From NCBI GenBank assembly GCA_028283625.1, contig JAPWKG010000026.1, positions 1 through 64,000 of the forward strand: a DNA stretch of 64,000 bases. The letters are read 5' to 3'. Source of the DNA: Acidobacteriaceae bacterium. Its GTDB lineage: Bacteria; Acidobacteriota; Terriglobia; Terriglobales; Acidobacteriaceae. The notes under the pieces are model-generated. The model was given only the letters and a program-made list of their open reading frames with translations. It ran no database searches and was not told the origin of the DNA. A program made the position numbers and the translations under genes. Of this stretch, positions 13,343 through 61,860 are shown in pieces (within the stretch, counting starts at the first letter, position 1; each line of letters opens with the position of its first letter).

Positions 13343-13389
13343 CCACAATCTCTTGTATTGCTCCTGGTCTCGAACCCAAGCTAGAGTAT
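13343..13389 (+). promoter_or_regulatory. Candidate tandem NrdR boxes
   Basis: Two sites resemble the NrdR consensus ACACWATATWTWGTGT: CCACAATCTCTTGTAT at 13343-13358 (12 of 16 positions by my count) and ACCCAAGCTAGAGTAT at 13374-13389 (11 of 16). Their starts are exactly 31 bases apart, the spacing known for NrdR box pairs (three helix turns). The second overlaps the candidate -10 element, as expected for repression. Individually weak matches; the spacing and location carry the call. Confidence 0.5.
13358..13387 (+). promoter_or_regulatory. Candidate promoter of the nrdA-nrdB operon
   Basis: TTGCTC at 13358-13363, an 18-base spacer and TAGAGT at 13382-13387. A start near 13394 would begin the transcript just before the riboswitch. 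Confidence 0.4.
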
Positions 13390-13400
13390 GAAAACAATTT

Positions 13401-13564
13401 CTGAGGTTCTCCCGATCGTCGGGGGATGAAAAGGGAATCCGGTGAAAATCCGGAGCTGCCCCGCAGCGGTAATCAGGTACGAACGCCAGAACAACACTGA
13501 GTCCGAAGAGCGGCTTGGGAAGTCAGGCAAGTAGGTTTGAACCTGTGAGTCCGAAGACCTGCCT
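13401..13564 (+). promoter_or_regulatory. Cobalamin (B12) riboswitch
   Basis: The conserved core is easy to read: GGTGAAAATCCGGAGC, then CTGCCCCGCAGCGGTAA, and the B12 box AGTCCGAAGACCTGCC closing at 13564. It binds adenosylcobalamin in the nascent mRNA and normally switches the downstream gene off. It lies about 110 bases before nrdA on the same strand. Its target here is a B12-independent class I reductase, the arrangement known for Streptomyces nrdABS. Confidence 0.95.
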
Positions 13565-13579
13565 TGGAACTAACGCTGA

Positions 13580-13595
13580 GCCTCCGAGGGGAGGC
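13580..13595 (+). promoter_or_regulatory. Hairpin below the riboswitch, possible expression platform
   Basis: GCCTCC, loop gagg, GGAGGC, only 16 bases after the B12 box. There is no T run, so it is not a simple intrinsic terminator; it may compete with aptamer folding. Confidence 0.35.
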
Positions 13596-60737: not shown

Positions 60738-60766
60738 TTGACACGCTCTGCTTCGAGTCGTAGGGT
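60738..60766 (+). promoter_or_regulatory. Sigma-70-like promoter of the peroxiredoxin leader
   Basis: Perfect -35 TTGACA (60738-60743), 17-base spacer and -10 TAGGGT (60761-60766). Predicted start near 60773, giving a leader of about 275 bases before the peroxiredoxin gene. Confidence 0.65.
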
Positions 60767-60839
60767 AGAAATCACCGCAGGTGGGGCACAACCGTTCCCA
60801 CGCTGGTGCGCAGCATCGGCAGCGGTACTTACAAGATTG

Positions 60840-60935
60840 ATGATCCGCTCCTCTTCCATCCCGTCCCTTCGCTGCTGCTGCAACCGCTGCTGCTGTTGCT
60901 GTGGCCCTGCGCGGGTGAGTCGGAGCGAATCGTAG
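60840..60935 (+). CDS. Poly-cysteine leader peptide (31 codons), candidate attenuator
   Basis: ATG at 60840 to TAG at 60933-60935. The peptide centre is RCCCNRCCCCCG: eight Cys codons in twelve (TGC and TGT mixed). The upstream ribosome site is weak. The stop lies 31 bases before the first arm of an intrinsic terminator at 60967-61000, and the whole unit sits between a good promoter and the peroxiredoxin gene. This matches leader-peptide attenuation, here read as sensing charged tRNA-Cys. The overlapping Leu-rich frame (CTG repeats) runs past the terminator and has no ATG, so the Cys frame is preferred. Function is inferred, not known. Confidence 0.5.
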   Translation: MIRSSSIPSLRCCCNRCCCCCGPARVSRSES

Positions 60936-60966
60936 GCGAACTAAAACGTCACGAAGCGAGACAACG

Positions 60967-61000
60967 ACCCACCCAAAGGCAGACCGCCGGGTGGGTTTTT
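60967..61000 (+). terminator. Intrinsic terminator in the peroxiredoxin leader (attenuator)
   Basis: ACCCACCC pairs with GGGTGGGT and is followed by a run of T. It lies 48 bases before the peroxiredoxin start, on the same strand, with no full gene upstream to terminate. An early GGTGGGG (60780-60786) could pair with its first arm as an anti-terminator. Confidence 0.75.
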
Positions 61001-61047
61001 CAGCTTACGGCGCCTGCAAACCAGTAACGAATCTGAAGGAGATTTGA

Positions 61048-61704
61048 ATGTCGCTCCGCATCAATGAGATCGCACCTGACTTTTCCGCCGAGACATCGCA
61101 CGGCCCGATTCACTTCCATGAGTGGATTGGCGACAACTGGGCGATCCTGTTCTCGCACCCGAAGGACTTCACCCCGGTTTGCACCACCGAGCTCGGCGCC
61201 ATGGCGGCGCTTGAGGACCAGTTCGCTGCCCGTGGCGCGAAGGTCATCGGCCTTTCGGTCGACAAGGTAGAGTCGCACAAGGAGTGGGAGAAGGACATCG
61301 AAGAGGTTAGCGGGCACAAGGTGAAGTACCCGATCATCGGTGACCCTGAGCTGAAGATTGCCAAGCTGTACGGCATGCTGGCCGCTGAGGAAGGCGATAG
61401 CTGCGAAGGCCGCACGCCGGCAGACAACGCTCCCGTTCGTACGGTCTTCGTGATCGGCCCGGACAAGCGCATCAAGCTGAACCTGACCTACCCGATGACC
61501 ACGGGCCGCAACTTTGCAGAGATTCTGCGCGTGCTGGACTCCATTCAGCTGACCTCCAAGCACAAGGTCGCGACCCCGGCCAACTGGCAGAAGGGCGATG
61601 ACGTGATCATCACCGCTGCGTTGAACAACGAGGAAGCAGAGAAGGTATTTCCGGGATATAAGACCGTGAAGCCGTATCTGCGTACGACCGCACAGCCAAA
61701 GTAA
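61048..61704 (+). CDS. 1-Cys peroxiredoxin (Prx6 type)
   Basis: Thiol peroxidase for H2O2 and organic peroxides, cytoplasmic, 218 residues. Peroxidatic C45 in FTPVCTTELG with Thr42 and the later Arg. The long C-terminal domain typical of Prx6 is present (TPANWQKGDDVIITAALNNEEA). A further Cys, C119, lies in a region where 1-Cys members usually have no resolving residue, so a 2-Cys-like mechanism is possible. Strong AAGGAGAT upstream of the ATG. Preceded by the leader peptide and terminator. Confidence 0.95.
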   Translation: MSLRINEIAPDFSAETSHGPIHFHEWIGDNWAILFSHPKDFTPVCTTELGAMAALEDQFAARGAKVIGLSVDKVESHKEWEKDIEEVSGHKVKYPIIGDPELKIAKLYGMLAAEEGDSCEGRTPADNAPVRTVFVIGPDKRIKLNLTYPMTTGRNFAEILRVLDSIQLTSKHKVATPANWQKGDDVIITAALNNEEAEKVFPGYKTVKPYLRTTAQPK

Positions 61705-61722: not shown

Positions 61723-61798
61723 GCACCGGTGGCGAAGTGGCTAACGCGCTGGTCTGCAAAACCAGTATTCGCCGGTTCGATCCCGGCCCGGTGCTCCA
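61723..61798 (+). tRNA. tRNA-Cys(GCA)
   Basis: Acceptor GCACCGG pairs with CCGGTGC; discriminator T; encoded CCA. Anticodon stem CTGGT/ACCAG, loop CTGCAAA (anticodon GCA), T-arm GCCGGTTCGATCCCGGC. It lies 18 bases after the peroxiredoxin stop, so it may be co-transcribed with a gene whose leader is rich in Cys codons. Confidence 0.95.
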
Positions 61799-61805
61799 AA
61801 ACATT

Positions 61806-61842
61806 GCAAGGAAAGCGAGGCAGCAGCTGCCTCGCTTTCTTG
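61806..61842 (+). terminator. Terminator after tRNA-Cys
   Basis: GAAAGCGAGGCAGC pairs with GCTGCCTCGCTTTC, extended by GCAAG/CTTGC. Confidence 0.75.
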
Positions 61843-61860
61843 CGTCTGGTGGGATAGCGG

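Follow-up and report, generated by a model that had tools for sequence, protein, structure and literature searches.

Leader-peptide attenuation is a textbook mechanism for biosynthetic operons, such as the proteobacterial trp, his and leu operons. These attenuators combine a run of codons for one amino acid, ribosome stalling and a terminator that competes with an antiterminator, and counterparts of all three are seen or predicted in the acidobacterial leader described here. The latter differs in that the terminator arm has the end of the frame itself as its predicted pairing partner, with no separate protector hairpin established, in that the amino acid is Cys, and in that the predicted transcript includes a tRNA gene. 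In Mycobacterium tuberculosis, loss of tRNA-Cys caused by the toxin VapC4 is said to stall ribosomes at the Cys codons of short frames and to raise oxidative-stress genes; the trigger there is reportedly the toxin, unlike in the acidobacterial leader, and we know of no second tRNA-Cys behind a leader in that response.

Poly-Cys upstream frames are indeed known from mycobacteria, as an earlier note on this DNA had stated: candidates were reported previously (PMC4633059, PMC1262725), and the title of a further study presents them as cysteine-responsive attenuators (Canestrari et al. 2020). The mycobacterial frames resemble the acidobacterial leader in having a Cys run near the stop codon of a short frame located before cysteine and sulfur genes. 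One of the reports found no conserved terminator for them and suggested Rho (PMC1262725), whereas the acidobacterial leader has a conserved intrinsic terminator and a covarying antiterminator; it also belongs to a different phylum, and its predicted targets are a peroxiredoxin and tRNA genes. Leader-peptide attenuation has been inferred for a synthetase gene as well: the uORFC-8-2 motif found upstream of cysS in Rhodobacterales combines an upstream frame carrying tandem Cys codons with an intrinsic terminator, and that report interprets it as ribosome-mediated attenuation sensing charged tRNA-Cys (PMC8632094). As described there, that motif has two tandem Cys codons and occurs exclusively before cysS, whereas the acidobacterial leaders contain 4 to 10 Cys codons and precede peroxiredoxin, tRNA-Cys and sulfur genes, or peroxiredoxin together with tRNA-Sec; in the present locus the gene 3' of the leader is a peroxiredoxin and not cysS. 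A search of open-licence papers retrieved no report of an attenuator acting on a tRNA gene, nor of poly-Cys leaders in acidobacteria or on a peroxiredoxin, in agreement with the claim of the earlier note that the latter arrangement was undescribed. Within that literature, cysteine attenuators are thus already known, and the apparently new elements are the acidobacteria, the peroxiredoxin and a tRNA gene as target.

The analyzed window was a stretch of 64,000 nucleotides from an Acidobacteriaceae bacterium (contig JAPWKG010000026.1), in which the promoter-like site, the Cys-rich frame, the terminator, the peroxiredoxin gene and the tRNA-Cys gene lie on one common strand (Table 1). The promoter with 17-nt spacing, the 31-codon frame, the terminator and the peroxiredoxin with its ribosome-binding site, all of which had been noticed earlier, could be read at the expected positions, and the tRNA-Cys, previously said to lie directly downstream, starts 18 nt past the peroxiredoxin gene. 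The leader frame, with its ATG at 60840 and its TAG at 60933-60935, is predicted to encode MIRSSSIPSLRCCCNRCCCCCGPARVSRSES, and the stem of the terminator begins 30 nt past the stop codon.

Table 1. Position of the leader, its RNA elements and the downstream genes in the window.
Feature	Position	Strand	Basis
Promoter-like site	60738-60766	+	TTGACA 60738-60743, 17 nt, TAGGGT 60761-60766 (sequence)
Three-way-junction RNA element, closing stem ACCGC/GCGGT	60774-60826	+	Fold, alignment
Leader peptide frame, 31 codons, 8 Cys codons	60840-60935	+	Sequence, relatives
Cys codon run CCCNRCCCCC, putative stall site	60873-60902	+	Sequence
Antiterminator 5' strand GGGUG-A-GUCG, within the last codons of the frame	60913-60922	+	Fold of 60908-60985, covariation in relatives
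Antiterminator 3' strand, overlapping the terminator 5' arm	60965-60974	+	Fold, covariation
Intrinsic terminator	60966-61000	+	Stem 60966-60974 with 60989-60997, U tract to 61000
Ribosome-binding site AAGGAGA	61036-61042	+	Sequence
Peroxiredoxin, 1-Cys/Prx6-like	61048-61704	+	AhpC-TSA and 1-cysPrx_C domains
Second (accessory) tRNA-Cys, anticodon GCA, U73	61723-61798	+	tRNA model match
Palindrome 3' of tRNA-Cys, likely transcript end	61806-61843	+	Sequence only

A generic scan of the window for consensus promoters and terminators listed neither the promoter nor the terminator of the leader. The former was missed because TAGGGT agrees with TATAAT at only three of six places, and the latter because the loop region past the stem exceeds the 8-nt limit of the scan, so that support for both elements rests on folding and comparison. 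Among 71 related leader regions, TTGAC opened the best promoter-like site in 68 (a count based on best-site picking, without a shuffled control), and the promoter-like score, taken over longer windows than those used before the tRNAs, was 8.6, compared with 7.0 in shuffled sequences. With regard to the leaderless start that marks the mycobacterial poly-Cys attenuators, the predicted ATG lies approximately 5 to 15 nt past the -10 element in many relatives and 73 nt past it in the window, where the RNA element is located in between.

The predicted leader peptide contains a run of codons for a single amino acid which is conserved in frame. With eight Cys in 12 codons, it showed the highest density across the six frames of the window, while 60 first-order Markov random windows with matching dinucleotide composition reached at most six in 12; another reading frame of this DNA is rich in Leu. 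In order to compare leaders among relatives, the 80 best peroxiredoxin loci were sampled from genomes representing one species each. By rule, a Cys-rich frame and a terminator of the CCCACC..GGTGGGTTT type preceded 17 of the 20 closest loci; in one more (L005) the leader was recognized by eye and the terminator was changed, and two (L010 and L013) had no leader. None of the 60 more distant loci from the same search had a leader under the same rule. With the addition of loci drawn from 200 genomes of the family, 71 of the 101 upstream regions examined carried both frame and terminator by rule (65 non-redundant), and L005, L086, L092, L094, L097, L101, L102, L109, L114 and L143 were added by eye. 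Two leader types were distinguished by eye: in one, a long run extends to near an RVC preceding the stop codon, and the other is short and has the form CCC..PxCG-stop; the division into classes A and B was also a grouping by eye, and in one leader (L284) the Cys run had decayed. The last 32 codons of the 65 leaders included 233 TGC and 172 TGT codons, with 4 to 10 Cys per leader. In the class-A alignment A3 (39 of the 54 non-redundant class-A leaders), the codon column at 40 was Cys in all 39 rows (37 TGC, 2 TGT), and that at 43 in 36 of 39 (30 TGT, 6 TGC). Conservation of Cys codons in orthologous leaders with synonymous exchange, one of the checks proposed in the earlier note, was hence found, as were the mutually exclusive hairpins that it had expected in the leader, the antiterminator showing covariation in relatives. 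A lack of Cys-codon conservation, which the note had named as a refuting result, did not occur.

An intrinsic terminator separates the frame from the gene, with a predicted fold of -21.7 kcal/mol (z = -4.7; 0 of 200 shuffles as good), and is conserved among relatives, its stem hardly varying. The alternative antiterminator fold of 60908-60985 reached -27.8 kcal/mol, an energy again matched by none of 200 shuffles. A segment at the end of the frame is complementary to one overlapping the 5' arm of the terminator; the two structures are mutually exclusive. In the window, the antiterminator has one C-A mismatch, compensated by a GUCG/CGAC extension.

Among the A3 leaders, 77.6% of the antiterminator cells were paired, compared with 29 to 49% when the strands were slid, a figure that is somewhat high since the 15 omitted class-A leaders include poor pairers such as L103, L128, L130, tL157 and uL168. 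The covariation score was matched by 1 of 500 shuffles, and four pairs were changed on both sides, a number reached in 9 of 500. One of the five covariation measures, the number of further pair types, pointed in the opposite direction (5 vs. 6.1 in shuffles; 483 of 500 shuffles equal or higher). One antiterminator position was unpaired in 38 of the 39 leaders, as if kept weak. On a tree built from the 30 A3 rows for which a peroxiredoxin sequence was available, the U-A version of one pair required five changes, at least three of them forced by supported branches. Compensatory cases were also identified by eye in L004 (GCAGGTG/CACCTGC), L092 (ATGCCGG/CCGGCAT), L094 (GCGGGTT/AACCCGC), L114, L141 and tL156, and an automatic consensus fold of 11 class-B leaders detected no pair with both sides changed; the case of L141 sits one column off in the class-B alignment. 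Moreover, the duplexes between each leader and its own terminator were on average stronger than swapped ones over the full set of 65 non-redundant leaders found by rule, leaving out the additions by eye (0 of 10,000 permutations reached the observed mean). The effect persisted after thinning at 80% identity (1 to 9 of 5,000 permutations), was weaker at 75% (2 to 219 of 5,000), and was not detected with six loose clusters, too few units for this comparison. A putative antiterminator that overlaps the frame, excludes the terminator and covaries is therefore present, with weaker evidence at strong thinning.

Between the promoter-like site and the frame, the window contains a putative three-way junction (-27.4 kcal/mol; 2 of 200 shuffles as good), alignable in 19 leaders (the window and 18 others), with changes on both sides in 7 of its 18 pairs. 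Rfam models did not match it in the window, nor in the six relatives scanned. The Rfam scan of the window retrieved a cobalamin riboswitch (RF00174, 111 bits; 13387-13580) and two tRNAs, with no match in the leader, and a T-box or another known riboswitch was rejected there on the basis of these Rfam scans.

Beyond what had been noticed earlier, the downstream tRNA-Cys was found to be a second, divergent isoacceptor. It matched the tRNA model, and is predicted to be charged by CysRS. An ordinary tRNA-Cys, different in sequence throughout, is encoded on contig 6 of the same genome (G000) beside tRNA-Gly, which rules out the accessory gene as the only tRNA-Cys of the genome; both copies have the GCA anticodon and U73. 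In 200 genomes of the family, 58 full-length tRNAs related to the accessory one were found (at least 86% identity), and 51 of them were tabulated as lying behind a leader. A Prx6-type gene preceded 38 of the 58, and 37 of these had a leader (29 by rule and 8 by eye; the exception was G111); in G098, the tRNA was preceded by two peroxiredoxins and a leader. Another five followed a peroxiredoxin of a different type, also with a leader (one protein, from L172, was profiled). In eight cases the tRNA was located directly behind the leader (L155, L156, L157, L159, L161, L162, L165 and G177): seven of these loci were read with leader and terminator, and G177 is a model match only, 53 nt before the tRNA. 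Two further loci, L277 and L295, had a leader directly preceding tRNA-Cys. Because the accessory tRNA directly follows the leader in eight relatives, it is probably also a target of the putative attenuator.

The seven leaderless loci were G111, G020, three in G191, G182 and G026, six of them searched within 1,500 nt. Upstream regions of ordinary tRNA-Cys genes showed no leader by rule in any of 11 cases; for one of these, the available sequence was limited to about 160 nt. The steadiest partners in the sample were the leader and the tRNA, the peroxiredoxin being common but exchangeable. As separate observations, the ordinary tRNA-Cys was often found approximately 2 to 10 kb away from the peroxiredoxin and in the reverse orientation to it (G047, G104, G119, G070, G066, G117, G141, G035, G022, G006 and others), and L175, L181 and L187 matched the ordinary tRNA-Cys pattern and were not called by ARAGORN, possibly representing attachment sites of integrated elements. 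In L009, L011, L012 and others, a GC-rich hairpin with no U tract was seen by eye between peroxiredoxin and tRNA, perhaps a processing site.

A tRNA-Sec gene followed the leader-associated peroxiredoxin in L270, L273 and L281, the leader of L270 being a model match with a terminator only, with no Cys-rich frame passing the filter. In L287 the order was peroxiredoxin, tRNA-Cys and tRNA-Sec, and in L020 a tRNA-Sec was located 1.7 kb downstream. SelB was above the cut-off in G075 (L270), G286 (L281), G154 (L287) and G022 (L020), and below it in G029 (L273), G000, G174, G104, G119 and G128.

Searching with a covariance model of the leader, the best match in this genome was the locus itself, followed by one on contig 20 (E = 0.0066); at E values up to 0.01, at least 256 of 298 genomes of the order had matches, the weak ones including chance matches. 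Forty stretches were chosen by hand, 39 around lower-scoring or second matches and one (L289) before the peroxiredoxin of G067. Downstream genes were cysD-cysN (3), sulfite/nitrite reductase (13; 11 assigned by motif, L262 by its start and L286 by its leader only), cysK (2), YeiH-type transporters (2), an ABC transporter with an NMT1-like binding protein (1), peroxiredoxin and/or tRNA types (16) and others (3, namely two outer-membrane receptors, one of them assigned by eye, and one other gene). CysD, CysN and CysK exceeded the NCBIfam cut-offs, and the reductase of L264 and the YeiH-type protein of L258 were under those cut-offs and over the Pfam ones (NIR_SIR and PF03601). In most reductase leaders, the complementary segments are CTGGCG within the frame and CGCCAG within the terminator (by eye), other letters with the same logic. 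Genes linked to the amino acid that would be sensed are thus found downstream, tRNA-Cys in the window and cysDN, cysK and NIR/SIR in relatives. The match on contig 20 (L276, 31200-32135) is a second poly-Cys leader in this genome. It is followed by a small frame and by another that is truncated at the end of the contig; the truncated frame had no family match, and its resemblance to the YeiH-type transporter of L258 is limited to a short motif. The receptors preceded by a poly-Cys leader in L259 and L278 have a carboxypeptidase-regulatory domain (assigned by Pfam in L259 and by eye in L278).

Based on these comparative checks, the attenuator interpretation of the earlier note is supported at the sequence level: the locus very probably has a leader-peptide attenuator that senses charged tRNA-Cys and controls one transcript comprising the peroxiredoxin and likely the second tRNA-Cys. 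A ribosome at the stop codon is expected, from its size, to cover most of the antiterminator 5' strand. With plentiful Cys-tRNA, the ribosome would reach the stop codon and cover most of this strand, the terminator would form, and transcription would end. When Cys-tRNA is scarce, whether because cysteine is in short supply or oxidized or because the ordinary tRNA-Cys is lost, the ribosome would stall in the Cys run; as the antiterminator starts 11 nt past the end of the last Cys codon, we infer that a ribosome stalled in the run leaves it free or nearly so. The free strand would capture its 3' partner and block the terminator, and peroxiredoxin and tRNA-Cys would be made; more of the sensed tRNA would close a feedback loop, and the peroxiredoxin may protect thiols under the same condition. 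As caveats, the peroxiredoxin is not among the genes of cysteine biosynthesis, and extra tRNA would not help where free cysteine itself is limiting. We lean towards a more specific version, in which the Cys-codon run gates its own reserve tRNA-Cys (and also tRNA-Sec in selenocysteine users), Cys-tRNA demand sets tRNA supply, and the peroxiredoxin is an exchangeable thiol-protecting passenger.

It seems unlikely that the attenuator governs the peroxiredoxin alone, with tRNA-Cys as a bystander that is expressed from a promoter of its own or supplied independently. Such an arrangement would be consistent with L003 and L020, where a leader-bearing peroxiredoxin has no tRNA-Cys nearby, and the GC-rich hairpin seen in several relatives could separate the two RNAs; however, leader and terminator stand immediately before tRNA-Cys in the directly linked loci mentioned above. 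Promoter-like scores in the 70 nt preceding 32 accessory tRNAs (25 behind a peroxiredoxin and 7 directly behind a leader) also argue against it, since nothing promoter-like was found on average (mean best score 6.4 vs. 6.5 in shuffled sequences), although a few regions beat their own shuffles, such as L006, which had the highest single score (8.0). Metal-responsive upstream frames exist, and a nascent poly-Cys peptide could itself sense metal or redox state (copper, zinc or thiol oxidation) instead of the ribosome sensing Cys-tRNA, the peroxiredoxin being a redox gene and the Cys run a plausible metal ligand. This appears very unlikely, given that Cys number and spacing vary among the 65 leaders, that the antiterminator geometry suits plain stalling, and that the leaders also precede cysDN, cysK and sulfite/nitrite reductase genes, which are expected targets for cysteine supply.

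The conserved and covarying three-way junction could alternatively be the true sensor, an undescribed type of riboswitch to which the Cys frame is secondary. We consider this highly improbable: the element was aligned in only 19 leaders, compared with 65 non-redundant ones with Cys run and terminator, and many other leaders have an ATG so close to the -10 element (within about 15 nt); as the sole sensor it was rejected on account of that restricted occurrence. Finally, the run is low-complexity DNA that reads as poly-Leu in another frame, and could in principle be a (CTG)n-like repeat lying by chance ahead of an ordinary terminator. The probability of this is negligible considering the in-frame conservation, the synonymous changes and the covarying antiterminator across dozens of genomes, and a poly-Leu frame was rejected because it is the Cys frame that relatives conserve.

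If the proposed attenuator operates as predicted, one RNA switch would join cysteine supply to peroxide defence, and the cysteine regulon formed by such leaders would be coherent. Should a tRNA gene be confirmed as the target of attenuation, codon demand and tRNA supply would be coupled in a closed loop, and the retention of a second, divergent tRNA-Cys by these bacteria would be accounted for.
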